In this document: piece after piece, positions 8,933 to 61,416 of the stretch | Position numbering within the stretch: the stretch's first letter is position 1 | Layout of the letters: every line of letters begins with the position of its first letter | Assembly: GCF_003641185.1 (NCBI RefSeq) | Contig: NZ_CP032757.1 | Span: forward strand, 682,001 to 746,000 | Reading direction: 5' to 3' | Length of the DNA: 64,000 nucleotides | From: Lactiplantibacillus pentosus | GTDB taxonomy: Bacteria; Bacillota; Bacilli; Lactobacillales; Lactobacillaceae | Program-made: the position numbers and the translations under genes | The notes under the pieces: generated by a model | What the model saw: only the letters and a program-made list of their open reading frames with translations | The model's database searches: none | What the model was told of the DNA's origin: nothing

Positions 8933-8989
8933 AGGAGCCTGCAGGTAATCTTTAATCAGCACTGATGAAGATTTATGTCATCTAAACGC

Positions 8990-9917
8990 ATTGTGCTAGT
9001 TGATTTTGCATGAATCCTGATTAAATCATGCAAGTTGGCGGATTTCTGTTCGTCAGCCAGCGTTCTTCCTATTCCGACTTCCGGGGCCGGCTGACAATTG
9101 CTGGAACGTAAGCCGACATCGATTTGAACTCACGCAGAAGACCACTGCGCAATTTCAAATACGAGTCTTATTCTAAGCCGGAAGAAAAACACTTCCAGCT
9201 AAGAATAATTTGGCTACTGAGCATTGTCAGCCAGCCTCTCCAGTCGGGAAGCCACTCGAATGGCAGATGAACGGCCGCCTATCTGGGTGCAATTGACCAC
9301 TGAATATTAAGTGGCTGTCCCTTCAAGAAGAGGCTTAATCAGTATTGATAATAACTGATGGTATTTAATTACTGAAAAGATTACCTGAATATTGCTCGCT
9401 CATCTTAATGCCACTAATGTCAATGGCAACTGCTCTTGGATTTGGTTGACAAAGCGGCCTTCGCTTATAATTTGAGACTTTATTATCTCAAACGACTAAA
9501 GAAACTTCTGATAGGTGTGGTCAAGTTTCTCGTCAGAAGCTTTAAGGGTAAAGAAGTTTGGCAATTATTAGGAAACAGTCTTACAGTTGAATATCAAGTT
9601 TCCGTGGATCAAGAAACCAACGACTGATTAAATAAAAAGTTGGGTACGCACATGTCTGCCTTTCGAATACCATCCCGGCTGGAAGGTGTTTCTGACAATG
9701 CTAAGTGGTGAAATTTCACTTAGCAAGTGTCTTTTGCTTGGTTAGTGAAAGACCAGTATTTAAGACGTGGGTTGTCGGCTTAAATCTGTGTCCACCACGT
9801 TCCAGCGTTGTCAGAAATGCCTGGAAGTCGGCTTAGGACGCAGCTCCACAGCAGGTTCACGGGTAATTCGGTCTACTTTCCAGCGGTCCTAAGCTGGTGG
9901 TTTCGATTTTAATACAA
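8990..9917 (+). repeat. structured interspersed element, copy A (forward)
   Basis: About 930 bp of non-coding DNA homologous to copies B-E in this window. The left terminal repeat runs 8990-9040 (TTGTGCTAGTTGATTTTGC and on). The first arm (9051-9290) folds into a long hairpin: GTAAGCC (9108-9114) pairs with GGCTAC (9212-9217), and TTATTCTAAGCCGGAAG (9168-9184) pairs with CTTCCAGCTAAGAATAA (9192-9208). An AT-rich diverged middle (9300-9640) is followed by a second branched arm (9670-9880). The right terminal repeat is worn away beside the next gene's terminator. It lies between two convergent transcription units. The small frame at 9436-9627 inside it is not convincing as a gene. Confidence 0.8.
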
Positions 9918-16832: not shown

Positions 16833-17876
16833 GCTAATTTGATGTGAATCGTGATTAAAACGTGCCAATTCTTAAGTTCAAGAGCAGCCAGCTGAGGCCC
16901 GCTGGAAACAGTGCGGTTTTGCGTAAACCTGCAGTAATAGATTCGTCTTATTCCGGCTTCCAGGCATTCTGGGCAATGGCCGTGACGTGGTGGACACAGA
17001 TTTAAGCCGAAAATCACGTCTTAAATACTGGTCTTCCACGTTGCCTGCGATATGGATGAAACGTGTTCGGGTCAGACTGGGACTTCCGGTTAGCTACGCC
17101 AGAACGCCAAGCGGAAATTCACCGCTTAACGCTCTAGCTAGGCTAATCCTCAGTCCCAAACCGTCTGAACCTCACACTCTGAAAGACACTTGGCCTTGCC
17201 CAGAATACCTTCCAGCCGGGATTGTATTCGAAGGGCAGACATTGCGAGTCCAACTTTAAATGGACGGATCATTGATTCTTAACAGACAGTTATCTTGAGA
17301 TTCAACTGTAAGACTGGTTTCCAATCATCACCAATTTAGCAGACTATTATTGGCCAGACGTCCGCATTGCTGAACGTTATATGGATTTAGTCTAATCATC
17401 TGAAATCGCAAAGTGTAGATGCCAAAAGAAAGACAATGCTATCGACTAATTTCAAGAATAGTTACTATATAAAGTTAGTGAATAATCTGGCGAATAATTT
17501 TCCTAGTATTTGACTTTCATAAATTGATCGTCCATACAGACTCAATTTGCCTGGAGATTCAGGGTTTAATATTCAGTGGCCAATTGTACCCAGATGGGTG
17601 GCTGTTCATCCGCCATTCGAGCGGCTTCCCGACTGGCCGGCCCGCCGGACAATGCTCAGTAGCCAAATTATTCTTAGCTGGAAGTGGGCTGCTTCCGGCT
17701 TAGAATAAGACTCGTATTTGAAATTGCGCAGCGGGTTTCTGCGTGAGTTCAAATCGACGTCGGCTACGTTCCAGCAATTGTCAGACGGCCCCGGAAGTCG
17801 GACTAAGGCGCGCATCGGCTGACGAACAACAAACTAACCAATTGGCACGTTTGAATCACGATTCATGACAACTTAA
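16833..17876 (-). repeat. structured interspersed element, copy B (reverse), with nested module
   Basis: About 1.04 kb homologous to copies A, C, D and E, in reverse orientation. Both ends carry the terminal repeat (TGAATCGTGATTAAAACGTGCC at the left up to position 16866; its inverted form at 17836-17868). The long arm shows GTAGCC (17659-17664) paired with GGCTAC (17762-17767) and ATTCTTAGCTGGAAG paired with CTTCCGGCTTAGAAT. Where other copies have an apical hairpin, this copy carries a 146 bp module (17037-17182). It lies between the convergent terminators of the protease gene and pepC. Frames within it (e.g. 16987-17259) are not conserved between copies. Confidence 0.8.
17037..17182 (+). 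repeat. 146 bp nested module, copy 1
   Basis: Same length and closely similar sequence to 54747-54892. It begins with a small hairpin CACGTT...AACGTG and holds further stems (GGGACT/AGTCCC; GAACGCC and a GCTCT region). It replaces the apical hairpin CACTAACCAAGC/GCTTGCTAAGTG seen in the matching place of copies D and E. Confidence 0.8.
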
Positions 17877-17912
17877 CACGTGACTTAAAAGGGGAGTGTT
17901 GCGTTGCCTAAT

Positions 17913-24402: not shown

Positions 24403-25155
24403 TGATTGTGTTCTGGTCATCTGCCGGTGCGCGCCTTAGTCCGACTTCCGGGGCCGGCTGACAACGCTGGAACAGGGCGGACATCGATTTGAACTCACGC
24501 AGAAAAGCGCTGCGCAATTTCAAATACGAGTCTTCTTCTAGCCCGGGAAGACCACCCGGACAAGAAGAATTTCGCCCTTGAGCATTGTCAGCCAGCCCCT
24601 ACAGTCGGGAAGCCGTTCGAATGGCGGATGAACGGCCACCTATCTTGGTACAATTGATCACTGAATATTAGGAGACAGGTCCTTCGAGTAAACTTTCAAT
24701 CGATATTGATAATGCTTTATGGCATTTTAGTACTGGGAAGATTACTGAATATAATTCACTAATTTCAATGGACACTAGTCTTGAATTTAGTCGATAAAAT
24801 TACCTTTGTCTAGAATTTGAGGTTTGGCTGTCTAAGGCGATCAGAGAAAGCTCAGAAAAGTTCTGTGAAACGCCAATTTGAAAAGTTCAATATGGGTAAG
24901 GGAGTTTTGCTATCATCAGAAACTAGTCTGACAGTCGACTATCAAAATGACCGTATGCAAAGAACCAGCGATTAATCCGACAAAAGTTGGGCCCGCAAAT
25001 ATCCGCCTTTCGAATACCATCTCGGCTGGAAGCCGGCGTAGGACGCAACTATCACAGCAACTTTACGCTAATTCGCACTGTTTCCAGCGTACCTCAGCTG
25101 GCAGCTTTTGACTTTGAAGTTTGCTTTTAGCTTGCATCCGAATCAACCACAACTA
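24403..25155 (+). repeat. structured interspersed element, copy C (forward, internally deleted)
   Basis: About 750 bp matching copies A, B, D and E. The first arm is intact and of the D/E subtype (CAGGGCG paired with CGCCCTTG; long TTCTTCTAGCCCGGG stem). The second arm lacks the whole branch between two CTGGAAG motifs, leaving CGGCTGGAAGCCGGC near 25030. Terminal repeats are partly eroded (ATTGTGTTCTGG at the left, ATCAACCACAACT at the right). It sits between the yacL terminator and the gltX promoter. Confidence 0.78.
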
Positions 25156-27071: not shown

Positions 27072-27083
27072 AAAGTAACACGT
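27072..27083 (+). repeat. 12 bp direct repeat, left (putative target-site duplication)
   Basis: AAAGTAACACGT, identical to 27975-27986 on the other side of element copy D. Confidence 0.65.
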
Positions 27084-27974
27084 ATCGTGGGAGTTAATTT
27101 GTCATGAATCATGATTAAAACGTGCTAAGTTGGCGTCCTGTTCGTCAGCCGGTGATCTTCCTAGTCCGACTTCCGGGGCTGGCTGACAACGCTGGAACAG
27201 GGCGGACATCGATTTGAACTCACGCAGAAAATCACTGCGCAATTTCAAATACGAGTCTTCTTCTAGCCCGGGAAGACCACCCGGACAAGAAGAACTTCGC
27301 CCTTGAGCATTGTCAGCCAGCCCCTCCAGTCGGGAAGCCACTCGAATGGCGGATGAACGACCACTTATCTTGGTGCAATTGACCACTGAATGTTAAAAGA
27401 CTGGATCTTTATGCGAATTTTTAATCAGTGTCAATGATTGTTTGTTATATTTAAATGCTGACGAGATGGTCTGAAATTCCAGTAACAACTAGTCTTGCGA
27501 TTAGAACGATTAGTCGATAGAATTGCCATCTGTTAGAAGTTCAGACTTTATCATTTCAGGCAAGCTAGAGAAGACTGCAAAAAACTGTCTTACAGTTGAC
27601 TATCAAAATGACTGTTTACTAAGAACCTACGAACAGTTCATCAAAAGTTGGGACCGAACATGTCTGCCATTCGAATACCATCCCGGCTGGAAGGTATTCT
27701 GGGCAAGGCCCAGTGGTGAAATTTCACTTAGCAAGCGTTTTTGGCTTGGTTAGTGAAAGACCAGTATTTAAGACGTGGACTTCGGCTTAAATCTGTGTCC
27801 ACCACGTTCCGGCCATTGACCAGAATGCCTGGAAGCCGGCCTAGGACGCACCTATCACTGCATGTTTACGGTAACTCGCACTGTTTCCAGCGGGTCTCAG
27901 CTGGTAGCACTTGAACTTAATAACTGGCACGTTTTAATCATCTTTAATGCCAAATCAAAACTAACACAACGCGT
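27084..27974 (+). repeat. structured interspersed element, copy D (forward, best preserved)
   Basis: An 891 bp non-coding element. Terminal inverted repeats: GATTAAAACGTGC near 27113-27125 and its inverse GCACGTTTTAATC near 27928-27940. First arm: GGGGCTGGCTGACAA (27175-27189) pairs perfectly with TTGTCAGCCAGCCCC (27310-27324), enclosing CAGGGCG/CGCCCTTG and CTTCTTCTAGCCCGGG with CCCGG and AAGAAG. The middle is AT-rich (27390-27640). Second arm: CCGGCTGGAAGGTATTCTGG at 27684 faces CCAGAATGCCTGGAAGCCGG, enclosing a CACTTAGCAAGC/GCTTGGTTAGTG hairpin and a CGTGG/CCACG stem. Flanked by a 12 bp direct repeat. Confidence 0.85.
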
Positions 27975-27986
27975 AAAGTAACACGT
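27975..27986 (+). repeat. 12 bp direct repeat, right (putative target-site duplication)
   Basis: AAAGTAACACGT, ten bases upstream of the cysS ribosome binding site AAAGGAG. Confidence 0.65.
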
Positions 27987-35419: not shown

Positions 35420-35575
35420 ACCCCGTGGGTGATCTGTGATAGATTACTAGAGGTTAAGTAATATCTCTACCTAAGACTCAGGCGGCTTAACGGCCTTAAT
35501 CTACCTGCCGAGGACATTGTTTTTTCTCTATGTCTTGGTGGACATAGGGATTTTTTTATAAATCCCTGAACCAAA
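35420..35575 (+). promoter_or_regulatory. L10 ribosomal leader with terminator
   Basis: The structured region between rplA and rplJ resembles the Firmicute L10 leader bound by L10-(L12)4: paired elements with GAGGTTAAG and GGCGGCTTAACGGCC, then a terminator at about 35528-35570 (CTATGTC...GACATAG with GGGATTTTTTTA). Expected to give autogenous control of rplJ-rplL. Confidence 0.75.
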
Positions 35576-38705: not shown

Positions 38706-38890
38706 AGCCCAATCAGCGACTCACCGAACTAGTCCCATCATTATAATTCAGCGTCATCCCAGGCTGAACATTGAAAATATAAACGTTAAAACTAACGGCG
38801 TTGCTGCCAACAGATTGACCACGCATTTGAACACCACGGGCTAACAATTCGTTGCCCCTGAAAATTGGGGTTAATTAGTAGCAGATTGTA
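38706..38890 (-). pseudogene. duplicated 3' end of the nuclease gene
   Basis: About 185 bases nearly identical to 39963-40147, the end of the nuclease gene, starting at the same base just past the stop codon. It covers the last ~60 codons, and a TAA replaces a glutamine codon near its upstream end (TACTAATTAACC versus TACCAAGTAACC). The terminator at 38663-38698 lies directly behind this copy. The intact nuclease gene has no terminator of its own. Confidence 0.85.
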
Positions 38891-39886: not shown

Positions 39887-39969
39887 ATGGGCCTCCATAA
39901 ATCTTTGTTTGATTATTTGTAAAATTGAGCGATCATTGTGTATCTAACTTTTTGAACAATATAGCCCAA

Positions 39970-40944
39970 TCAGCGACTCACCGAACTAGTCCCATCATTA
40001 TAATTCAGGGTCATTCCAGGCTGAACATTGAAGATATAAACGTTAAAACTAACGGCATTGCTGCCAACTGATTGACCACGCATTTGGACACCACGGGCTA
40101 ACAATTCGTTGCCCCTGAAAATTGGGGTTACTTGGTAGCGGACGTAGTTATTTGGACTGGCTTTCAAATAGTCCGCGACTTGGTCTTCGTAAGTCGTCAT
40201 TTCGGGGTCGTTCAAGGTGCGAGTCCCGGTCATCAGATTTTTGATGTTATTATTTTGACCAGTCAACTGGTAACCAATCAAGTGACTGCGATTATAGAGC
40301 CAGCCGCTGCTGATTCGTTTATTATGCCAGCCAGTTGGTTGGACGTTGAGCGCCTCACGTTCGGCCTTAGGCATCAGCGATTGGTTGAGTAGGGCGTTGG
40401 CAGCCGTGACCCGGTTCAACTGGTCTAAGTCGCCGTATTTTTGCCAGGCGCCGCGGCTGGTACTGAGGTCATCACGACTAAACGCCGGCTGATTTTGATT
40501 GACGGTGATCGTCTGTTGACCCGCGTAGGCTTTGTTGGCCAACGCTGCGTTACTTGGATTACTGCCGGTAGTGGTGGTTGCGGCCGTTTTGGACGTTGCA
40601 CCAGCTTGTTGGTTCTTTTTCTTCTGATTATCGACTTGTGTTTTGTCTTTTGATAATTGCTTGGCAGCTTGCTTTAGGCTACTAGCAGAGGCCGAGTTCG
40701 CTTCTTGAAGCGTCGTCAATTTTTGATCATTGGTTGCGATAACTAGGTGTGTTTTGGTGACGGTCTTAGTTTTGACTGTCGGTTGTGCCTGCTTCCCCGG
40801 TAGACTAAAGAGTCCAATACTGACGAGCAATAAGAGTAGCGCTGGCCAACCGTGCCGCCACCATTGCCGTCCGGGATAATGGCGATAGCTCTGCCAACCC
40901 CAGTAGATTGCGGCCAATAAAATAAGTGTTCCGATGATTCCCAA
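39970..40944 (-). CDS. DNA/RNA non-specific endonuclease (DNA-entry nuclease-like)
   Basis: A 324-residue protein. An N-terminal membrane region (two hydrophobic stretches before residue 50) and a coiled, Lys/Gln/Thr-rich linker lead to a C-terminal beta-beta-alpha-metal nuclease domain. The active-site motif is YNRSHLIGYQLTGQNNNIKN, matching the DRGH-type catalytic histidine and metal-binding asparagines of EndA/NucA nucleases. It starts TTG behind GGGGGA, 11 bases after the lipoprotein gene on the same strand. It is likely membrane-anchored with the domain outside. Confidence 0.85.
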   Translation of the reverse strand: MGIIGTLILLAAIYWGWQSYRHYPGRQWWRHGWPALLLLLVSIGLFSLPGKQAQPTVKTKTVTKTHLVIATNDQKLTTLQEANSASASSLKQAAKQLSKDKTQVDNQKKKNQQAGATSKTAATTTTGSNPSNAALANKAYAGQQTITVNQNQPAFSRDDLSTSRGAWQKYGDLDQLNRVTAANALLNQSLMPKAEREALNVQPTGWHNKRISSGWLYNRSHLIGYQLTGQNNNIKNLMTGTRTLNDPEMTTYEDQVADYLKASPNNYVRYQVTPIFRGNELLARGVQMRGQSVGSNAVSFNVYIFNVQPGMTLNYNDGTSSVSR

Positions 40945-51223: not shown

Positions 51224-51318
51224 TGCCGCAAGGCCAAAAGGCAAGGGTGGATTTACGAATCGTGTCAGGTCCGGAAGGAAGCAGCACTAAGTTTGCTTCA
51301 TCTTGTGCCTTTTGTTTT
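51224..51318 (+). ncRNA. ffs: signal recognition particle RNA (small bacterial type)
   Basis: Contains the conserved SRP apical core GTCAGGTCCGGAAGGAAGCA (51265-51284). Flanking strands AAAAGGCAAGG and CTTGTGCCTTTT close the long hairpin. TATTAT at 51212-51217 is a -10 about 7 bases before the likely 5' end. It lies between tadA and dnaX, its usual place in Firmicutes. Confidence 0.93.
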
Positions 51319-51331
51319 TATGAAATGTAAC

Positions 51332-51362: not shown

Positions 51363-51482
51363 TTTAACCTAACTGGCTTTTACGGCCGATGCTTGGATGA
51401 CGACTTGTCGTGCACACTGAGTTGAGGTCGCATTCACATACAGATGGTATTAATATAGTAATGTAACATTCGTTGTGTCGGT

Positions 51483-51597
51483 GATTGTTCAGCATTAACG
51501 CTGATTAAAACGTGCCAGTTGGTGGATTTTTGTTCGTCAGCCGGTGCGGCGCCTTAGTCCGACTTCTTGAGCCGACTGACGAACCACAAGCCAATGA
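51483..51597 (+). repeat. mini-derivative (copy F) of the interspersed element
   Basis: Carries the terminal motif CTGATTAAAACGTGCCAGTTGG (to 51522) and the first hairpin only: GTTCGTCAGCCGG faces GCCGACTGACGAAC around CTTAGTCCGACTTCT. It lacks the long arm, middle and second arm. It lies about 50 bases upstream of the dnaX start, in its promoter region. Confidence 0.65.
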
Positions 51598-54632: not shown

Positions 54633-54746
54633 ATTAGCTGATAGTATGTCATTGTCAGGACGGCAAGTTTGAATGGATTTGATTTGAAGCGTGAACTCAT
54701 ATAAATTGCTGAGTTAGCGGTGATCTGATTTTTGAGTCATGGCTAT

Positions 54747-54892
54747 CACGTTGCCCGCGATATTGCCGAAACGTGTTCGGGGCAGATTGGGACTTCAGGT
54801 TTGTTACGCCAGAGCGCCAAGCGGAAATACACTACTTAACGCTCTAGCTAGGCTAATTCTCAGTCCCAACCCGCCTGAGCCTCACACTCTGA
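54747..54892 (+). repeat. 146 bp module, copy 2 (solitary)
   Basis: Same length and largely the same sequence as 17037-17182, here without the surrounding larger element. Stems CACGTT/AACGTG, GGGACT/AGTCCC and AGAGCG/CGCTCT are kept. It lies between the dnaX-operon terminator and the tmk promoter. Confidence 0.8.
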
Positions 54893-55001
54893 GCATTACT
54901 AACTATCAGTAATTAACTTAATAAATCGTCAAAACCACAATTGGTAGTAGCTATCGCCCTAAAAATCGGTCAAAAAATACCCTCACTAGTGGTAACCGGA
55001 T

Positions 55002-60502: not shown

Positions 60503-61416
60503 TATTGTGCTCGCTGAATTGGCACGAATTATGATTGAATCAGGCCAATTTCTAAATTCAAAACCACCAGCTTAAGACCGCTGGAAAATAAAACGAGTTC
60601 GCGTAAACTTACAGTGATATGCGCGTCCTAAGCCGGCTTCCAGGCATTCTGGGCAATGGCCGTGACGTGGTGGACACAGATTTAAGCCGATAGCCCACGT
60701 CTCAAATACTGGTCTTTCACTAACCAAGCACAAAACGCTTGCTAAGTGAAATTTCACCACTTGGCCTTGCCCAGAATGCCTTCCAGCCGGGATCCTATTC
60801 GAAAGGCAGATATTTGCGGACCCAACTTTAAATGAACTAGTCGTTGATATTTGGTATACGCCATGTTGACATTCGGCTGTAAGACTGGCAAGTTTTCAGG
60901 TTATCTTGCTGTATTCCAATTCTGTGAACCTTCAGCATTACTGAAGGTTGTATAGATTTTGTCTGCTCGCCTGAGATGGTAAAGCCTCTATGTTAAGTGA
61001 AAGCCAGGATTATCGACTAATTTCATGGCATTTTACCAACATTTAAATGCGATAAGTCAGTGTAATGCTGATTCAAAGTTTGCTTGAAGTTACTGTAACT
61101 AAATATCCATTGGTCAATTGCACTCAGATAGGTGGCCGTTCATTCGCCATTCGAGCGGCTTCCCGACTGGAGGGACTGGCGGACAATGCTCAAGGGCGAA
61201 ATTCTTCTTGTCCGGGTGGTTTTCCCGGGCTAGAAGAAGACTCGTATTTGAAATTGCGCAGTGGGTTTCTGCGTGAGTTCAAATCGATGTCCGCCCTGTT
61301 CCAGCGTTGTCAGCCGGCCCCGGAAGTCGGAATAAGACGCACATCGGCTGACGAACAGGAATCTACCAACTAGCATGATTCAATCATCTTTAGTGCCAAA
61401 TAGGAACCAGCACAAC
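60503..61416 (-). repeat. structured interspersed element, copy E (reverse)
   Basis: About 910 bp. Terminal inverted repeats are TTGTGCTCGCTGAATTGGCAC at 60504-60524 and GTGCCAAATAGGAACCAGC at 61393-61411. The long arm has CAAGGGCG (61191-61198) paired with CGCCCTG (61292-61298) and TTCTTCTTGTCCGGG paired with CCCGGGCTAGAAGAAG. The second arm keeps the apical CACTAACCAAGC/GCTTGCTAAGTG hairpin. Located between the convergent terminators of galE and the phn genes. A frame of ~100 codons runs through it but is not kept in copies A and B. Confidence 0.82.

Follow-up and report, generated by a model that had tools for sequence, protein, structure and literature searches.

The window, that is, the whole stretch of 64,000 nucleotides of Lactiplantibacillus pentosus DNA that was analysed, carries five copies of an interspersed element, here called A to E, which lie between its long open reading frames (ORFs; listed from a threshold of 100 aa or more). 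The reference copy is D (27080..27974, plus strand, 895 bp), delimited by its repeat ends and by an empty site, with both terminal inverted repeats (TIRs) in place: the left one at 27080..27096 on the plus strand (13/17 to the consensus) and the right one at 27958..27974 on the minus strand (15/17, two mismatches). It is bordered by the target duplication AAAGTAAC, found at 27072..27079 and again at 27975..27982 (both plus strand). Inside lie two structured units located by a model search: arm 1 at 27176..27323 on the minus strand (113.1 bits) and arm 2 at 27693..27829 on the plus strand (137.8 bits), in each of which the better-folding strand is the one that reads outward, to the left and to the right, respectively. 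The middle is AT-rich, as the sequence-only reading of this DNA had described it (GC 0.344 vs. 0.452 for the whole element), and copy D folds far better than its shuffled versions on both strands (z of −12.2 and −14.7; none of 20 shuffles as good on either).

The other copies, delimited by repeat search, are in various states of decay. Copy A (8986..9917, plus strand) has a left TIR with one mismatch and an approximate right end at which no TIR was seen; its units are at 9084..9237 (arm 1, minus strand) and 9685..9821 (arm 2, plus strand). Copies B (16833..17886) and E (60503..61416), both on the minus strand, have decayed TIRs and approximate ends; the units of B are at 17639..17791 (arm 1, plus strand) and 16963..17143 (arm 2, minus strand, with a longer branched hairpin in place of one hairpin), and those of E at 61173..61320 (arm 1, plus strand) and 60643..60780 (arm 2, minus strand). 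Copy C (24403..25155, plus strand) has lost its TIRs and part of arm 2, and keeps arm 1 at 24451..24598 on the minus strand. The units of these copies likewise come from the model search. The repeat search also found a fragment at 51471..51580 (plus strand), composed of one element end and the start of arm 1, and, at 54730..54910 (plus strand), an isolated remnant of arm 2 in its long-hairpin form. That longer branched hairpin replaces one arm 2 hairpin in a subset of copies (40 genome matches scored), and a similar long variant of arm 2 is found on a plasmid of Ligilactobacillus salivarius (locus L308).

The five copies, their two orientations and their shared blocks had been described from the letters of the window, and the repeat search recovered all of them; the copy lengths sum to 4540 bases, or 7.1% of the window, in agreement with the earlier figure of about 7%. 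The intergenic, transposase-free character of the copies was likewise upheld: no ORF of transposase size lies inside any of them, the ORF list containing only a 102-aa ORF within copy E and a 108-aa ORF whose end touches copy A. Two starts had to be moved, that of D from 27084 to 27080 and that of A from 8990 to 8986, and the claim of shared terminal repeats holds for the family, not for every copy, with both ends clear in D only.

Two known RNAs were found in the window with Rfam, a ribosomal protein L10 leader (35452–35565) and a bacterial small SRP RNA (51233–51319). A 180-nt direct repeat, 95% identical between 38706–38885 and 39963–40142, adjoins two neighbouring minus-strand ORFs and looks like a partial gene duplication.

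One covarying unit in two arms

The element had been read as having two kinds of arm, a long hairpin and a branched one. Alignment overturned this: arm 1 aligned to the reverse complement of arm 2 with a score of 91, compared with 44 for the best of 200 shuffles and 31 for the same orientation, which shows that the element consists of one unit duplicated in inverted orientation on either side of the AT-rich centre. The arms are thus inverted, diverged copies of a single unit of about 140 nt, and profiles of both arms match the unit in other congeners. Arm 2 was aligned from 60 of the 72 copies with a usable BLAST span, the other 12 being removed for length (at least 260 nt) or gaps.

For comparison across species, we assembled an alignment of 40 unit sequences, 39 of 65 extracted ones and one from the genome itself, picked by eye for genome spread. 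RNAalifold folds it into a three-way junction in which a basal stem meets two hairpins; the junction is marked by invariant letters (for instance, GTTCC after the basal strand), and of the 42 pairs 36 are changed on both sides. On this structure 94.8% of the cells are paired, vs. 72.0% in shuffles and at most 43.3% when the structure is slid along the alignment; the covariation score is 0.617 vs. 0.189, and none of 500 shuffles was as high on any of five measures. Cells changed on both sides number 390, compared with 121 in shuffles and at most 86 in slid versions. The structure was derived from the alignment itself, which favours it over the slid versions, and relatedness is not taken into account in the shuffles; with an effect of this size, it is nevertheless unlikely that either is the full explanation. 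The unit is probably under selection as a folded single strand.

The sequence-only reading had warned that the element might prove to be a known Rfam family, and it did not: Rfam gave no match to the element at the gathering threshold and none for D at E values up to 5, while the units in six other loci had no match at E values up to 1, the single weak hit of that search lying outside the units. Outward-reading scaffolds near the element ends are a feature of the TnpB and IscB systems, and the unit resembles them in this respect, so that one could see in it an RNA that guides a nuclease or recombinase or serves it in trans, similar to an omegaRNA or a bridge RNA. We hold this to be very improbable: the five window copies have no long ORF inside, the distance from arm 2 of D to the element end is about 145 bp, and the units have no match to HEARO or any other Rfam family.

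Copies across the genome

A 23-nt core of arm 1 has 130 sites in the genome at up to three mismatches (70 forward, 60 reverse; 97 exact), and the same core read backward as a control has none, which shows that the family is not a product of chance. The copy count that had been proposed as a check thus comes to about 130 in a genome of 3.67 Mb on two contigs. The 41 copies with both ends have a median length of 968 bp (range 811–1234), and by our estimate the elements cover up to about 3% of the genome, a product of copy number and median length that is to be read as an upper figure, many copies being truncated. The longer matches to D are mostly 73–92% identical.

Gene context was counted for the 49 copies whose flanks were long enough and held an ORF on either side: 31 lie between co-directional genes, 12 between convergent and six between divergent ones, a split that we judge, on the counts themselves and not against a genome-wide expectation, to be unremarkable as regards insertion bias. 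Between co-directional genes the element points with both neighbours in 22 of 31 cases, a weak bias. The 97 exact cores extend from 225,681 to 3,574,671 of the 3,622,107-base contig, and a single one lies in the 478 kb made up of the part after 3,369,737 together with bases 1–225,680, vs. about 13 expected from an even spread; if the contig start is the origin, the copies avoid the origin.

Insertion footprints

The TIR consensus of about 17 bp, ACGCRTTGTGCTAGTTA, was derived from the edges of 109 copies, and at up to two mismatches it has 54 + 46 = 100 sites in the genome, compared with 1 + 2 = 3 for the control. Target duplications were sought in the 41 of these 109 copies in which both TIRs match at 12/17 or better, the others lacking at least one such TIR. 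Identity between the flanks is highest at a spacing of 8 (0.439 vs. 0.271 in shuffled pairs, n = 41), with 0.411 at a spacing of 7, while at spacings 4–6 and 9–14 it is 0.256–0.300 vs. 0.256–0.283. The 8-bp flanks match at five or more of the eight positions in 15 of the 41 copies (about one expected), at seven or more in six, and perfectly in four; most copies look too decayed for this test.

Comparison of insertion sites between strains, another check that had been suggested, showed copy D to be absent from its place in two congeners (G003 and G005), where the flanks are joined with a single copy of the target. Such empty sites could be precise losses, but the duplication around D fits insertion. 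A target duplication of 12 bp that had been considered for D resolves into the 8 bp and four matching target bases.

At the place of copy C, G003 has oppositely oriented element matches between the same flanks, while the gaps in G005 and G004 are only about 200 and 140 bp. Two further genomes, G014 and G009, seem to have an element at the same place (L035:1117–1624 and L037:1152–1624; flanks compared by eye), and some insertions may therefore have persisted through a species split.

IS982 kinship of the ends

A scan with the TIR over a public genome collection yielded 103 stretches, a large part of them at contig ends in Firmicutes, as is expected of a multi-copy IS; 80 of the 103 were examined. 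The ORFs between such TIRs, in units of 979–1122 bp, scored above the cut-off of the NCBIfam model NF033520 (IS982-family transposase) in all three cases tested. One candidate for an autonomous element, at locus L152, was rejected since the gene inside encodes a MucBP surface protein and not a transposase.

Of the 21 genus genomes surveyed, eight carry IS982 transposases over the cut-off. The search for TIR pairs took in 26 IS982 loci, comprising every genus match over the cut-off, two weaker ones and two on plasmids, and 19 of them (9/12 and 10/14) have a pair matching at 14/17 or better at each end, 951–1053 bp apart. Perfect 17/17 TIRs at both ends occur in only two IS982 copies, in G008 (979 bp) and G016 (977 bp), which by length and flanks are the stretches L198 and L211 of the scan and have broken frames. 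None of the open-frame copies agrees with the TIR consensus in full at both ends; they come within one to three bases of it at each end (e.g., L393, L394, L406, and L417). Duplications of 7–9 bp flank five of nine IS982 copies with good TIR pairs, with exactly 8 bp in L393 and L406, and the six chromosomal copies of G020 have an exact 8 bp in three cases (L411, L412, and L413) and about 6 bp in the other three. A second TIR subtype, ACGCTTGGTGCTAGTTG, ends an IS982 of G014 and, with a single change at one end, a structured element of G018 (L300).

The kinship is thus with the IS982 family in its terminal repeats and short target duplications; it differs in that the element has no transposase gene, and the part in common is the outer ~17 bp only. 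This genome lacks any IS982 match over the cut-off and has just a C-terminal stretch beside a TIR on the plasmid contig, and it is for this reason that we infer a transposase acting in trans. Over 561 bp, the plasmid contig agrees exactly with plasmids of L. pentosus and at 99.5–99.8% with those of other genera. Relatives of the IS982 ORF (below 60% identity) occur on 1151 plasmid records, 43 of them of Lactiplantibacillus.

The IS982-like TIR, the target duplication of IS982 length and the lack of an own transposase in the window copies make it highly likely that the elements are IS982-type non-autonomous transposable elements of about 0.8–1.2 kb; that they combine such mobility with a duplicated unit is, as a joint statement, very probable. 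An autonomous relative with the same terminal repeats had been named as something to look for, and the IS982 elements of the genus, with the same or nearly the same ends, are such relatives. The sequence-only reading had offered a non-autonomous mobile element or a repeated structured RNA. Its mobile half is borne out by the TIRs, the 8-bp target duplications, the empty site and these relatives; of its structured-RNA half the conserved fold is upheld by covariation, while action as RNA would be a further step. The data support both a mobile element and a structured unit, which are not alternatives.

Outward polarity of the units

The two strands of the unit are clearly unequal. Arm 1 folds better on the minus strand of the element in 107 of 109 copies, by a mean of 11.75 kcal/mol, and for arm 2 the plus strand is the better one in 78 of the 87 copies in which its motif was found (of 109), by a mean of 8.4 kcal/mol, both being the outward strand. 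Among the 40 units aligned across species, 36 favour the same sense, by a mean of 7.0, with a consensus energy of −49.7 vs. −38.1 on the other strand. Cells with G–U outnumber those with A–C in both arms of this genome (183:67 and 65:25; by position, 25 vs. 19 and 21 vs. 10), counts that are not independent because the copies are related, though the two diverged arms agree; across species the ratio is 60:17 cells and 15:4 positions.

The order of neighbouring units follows the same rule. The model search covered 98 sources (the window and 97 loci of our own extraction), and among neighbours less than 700 bp apart, with sequence duplicates removed, all 127 adjacent pairs on opposite strands face outward (100 in this genome, 27 in others) and none inward; the 39 neighbours on the same strand are arrays or split hits.

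Outward polarity would be expected if the middle held divergent promoters that transcribe both units outward, and a sequence TTGACA, 17 bases, TAAAGA was seen by eye upstream of arm 1 of D. We consider this improbable as well. No conserved sigma-70-like promoter was found in the middle of the element, the best scores over the 109 and 87 copies not rising above shuffles, and in D, sites that resemble promoters or terminators do not exceed the level of shuffles. Moreover, the centre between the units is only about 20 bp in L044 and about 46 bp in L350, so short that internal divergent promoters are not a general explanation.

The unit might work as folded single-stranded DNA or as a cruciform, in transposition, replication or chromosome organisation, and not as RNA. 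It is true that at each end of the element the better-folding strand is the one with its 3′ end at that terminus, that the compensatory changes include few G–U intermediates (60 of 1670 cells across species), that in at least 5 of 22 loci the elements of other species seem to have the unit itself as their boundary, and that the description of a similar repeated motif in PMC11109978 raises a DNA form. Transposases with a DDE domain act on double-stranded DNA, and those of IS982 carry that domain; the lead of G–U over A–C also speaks for RNA, although single-stranded DNA would share it by favouring G–T over A–C. With the supermotif account in PMC5643018, which reports stable transcribed RNA, as a further point against it, we regard the DNA form as somewhat unlikely. 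The present sequence data would fit folded RNA and folded single-stranded DNA alike.

Distribution and shells

BLAST with D found matches in 15 of 60 genomes: its own, 13 of the 20 remaining congeners and a single genome from a different genus (E = 7e-4). The covariance model reached further, finding the unit in 90 of 301 genomes of the family (own genome included), in 14 of the 40 genera sampled. An order-wide sample gave 14 of 295 genomes: 12 from the family, the own genome among them, and two outside it with weak matches (E values of 2e-5 and 1.5e-4). Both searches with the model used stricter filters that lose weak matches; in these genome samples the unit is nearly confined to the Lactobacillaceae. 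The element is also present in a record labelled L. plantarum, EGD-AQ4, and D matches 26 plasmid records (19 Lactiplantibacillus, seven Ligilactobacillus), none over more than 80% of its length. No match to D was found in phage records at distant sensitivity or in E. coli genomes at near sensitivity.

The simplest account of such an element would be a plain MITE, whose arms are kept palindromic by template switching and gene conversion and have no selected function. Bacterial MITEs are indeed described as intergenic, with foldable transcripts (PMC10969869), and the element shares with QMITE2 of Coxiella, as presented there, the inverted ends, the short target duplications (7–9 bp in QMITE2), the intergenic position and the foldable transcript. 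It is, however, several times longer, and its interior is a conserved unit found over many genera in place of joined IS ends. The same three-way junction with the same invariant junction letters in many genomes of those 14 genera, the strand asymmetry in both arms, and a 23-nt core that is exact at 97 of its 130 sites where longer matches to D are mostly 73–92% identical all argue against this account, and make the plain MITE improbable.

The outer edges of 22 loci outside this genome were also compared. In at least five (L342, L355, L049, L306, and L054), the inverted sequences that match best are those at the base of the unit and not an IS982-type TIR, which indicates that IS982 is not the whole story; one (L300) has an IS982-like TIR, and the rest are unclear or of the type of this genome. 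Some genomes have arrays or single units. In L303, L305, and L386, three or four units follow one another, minus units first and then plus, which suggests local amplification. The IS982-type ends look like one shell of the unit and not like its origin. It is quite conceivable, at slightly less than even chances, that we are dealing with a Lactobacillaceae-wide mobile unit, recognisable by its covarying junction without Rfam counterpart and its outward pairs or arrays, which travels in more than one transposon shell and acts as folded RNA or single strand at the ends, and which would be a novel type of structured element carried by transposons and not a passive MITE. The shells would then perhaps be two IS982 TIR subtypes in some species and the basal stem of the unit itself in others.

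Discussion

The family had not been recognised in the sequence-only reading; it fits the L. plantarum supermotifs (LPSMs) as described in a paper on L. salivarius (PMC5643018), which takes them from Wels et al. 2009 (J Bacteriol 191:3420). In that description, LPSMs are conserved, stable, transcribed, intergenic sequences of 800–1000 nt that occur in many copies and can adopt a cruciform, and they are said to be absent from other Lactobacillus species. The elements here have a median of 968 bp, within that size, and are found in many copies, between genes, in the L. plantarum group; with a cruciform-like shape and the same genus in addition, they are most likely LPSMs, an assignment made by size, place, copy number and shape as described and not by sequence. 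The LPSMs of that account are L. plantarum-specific and of unknown function, whereas here a covarying unit, duplicated within the element, is spread over the family, and the element has IS982-type ends, target duplications and an empty site. A literature search, for which most subscription journals were out of reach, returned no account of these elements in terms of IS982 or MITEs. The IS982-type mobility, the duplicated unit, its covariation and the family-wide range are new.

Two further systems are similar in part. MRSC-65-2 and other candidates for mobile or repeat sequences, as characterised in PMC11109978, are also repeated covarying motifs, sometimes near transposases, for which RNA or DNA form was left undecided; by description, which is all that is compared here, MRSC-65-2 extends over diverse phyla, while our unit is nearly confined to the Lactobacillaceae. 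IStrons resemble the element as a structured nucleic acid riding on an IS, and differ in being a group I intron joined to an IS according to PMC4227781, the element here having no intron match in Rfam.

A possible course of events can be put together from these observations. The elements would have been moved in trans by an IS982 transposase, encoded on plasmids or by copies that have since decayed, and selection on the fold would have kept their interior, the unit perhaps, though with less assurance, serving as a folded transcript. As the better-folding strands face outward, a read-through transcript arriving from either side would meet one unit in its folding sense and form a compact RNA structure. 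Such a structure might insulate the neighbouring genes and stabilise or end the read-through RNA; in this way insertions would become tolerable, and copies could accumulate. The role of transcript-level insulator is a tentative proposal on our part, one we would put at rather below even.

For the lactobacilli, an LPSM-like family described in 2009 without a function thus gains a way of moving, and a range beyond L. plantarum is indicated. Because the unit is compact, strongly covarying and has a testable fold, small constructs bring the question of LPSM function within reach. Should the unit act as RNA, this would be a case of a structured RNA spread by DNA transposition to occupy up to about 3% of the genome of a food bacterium.
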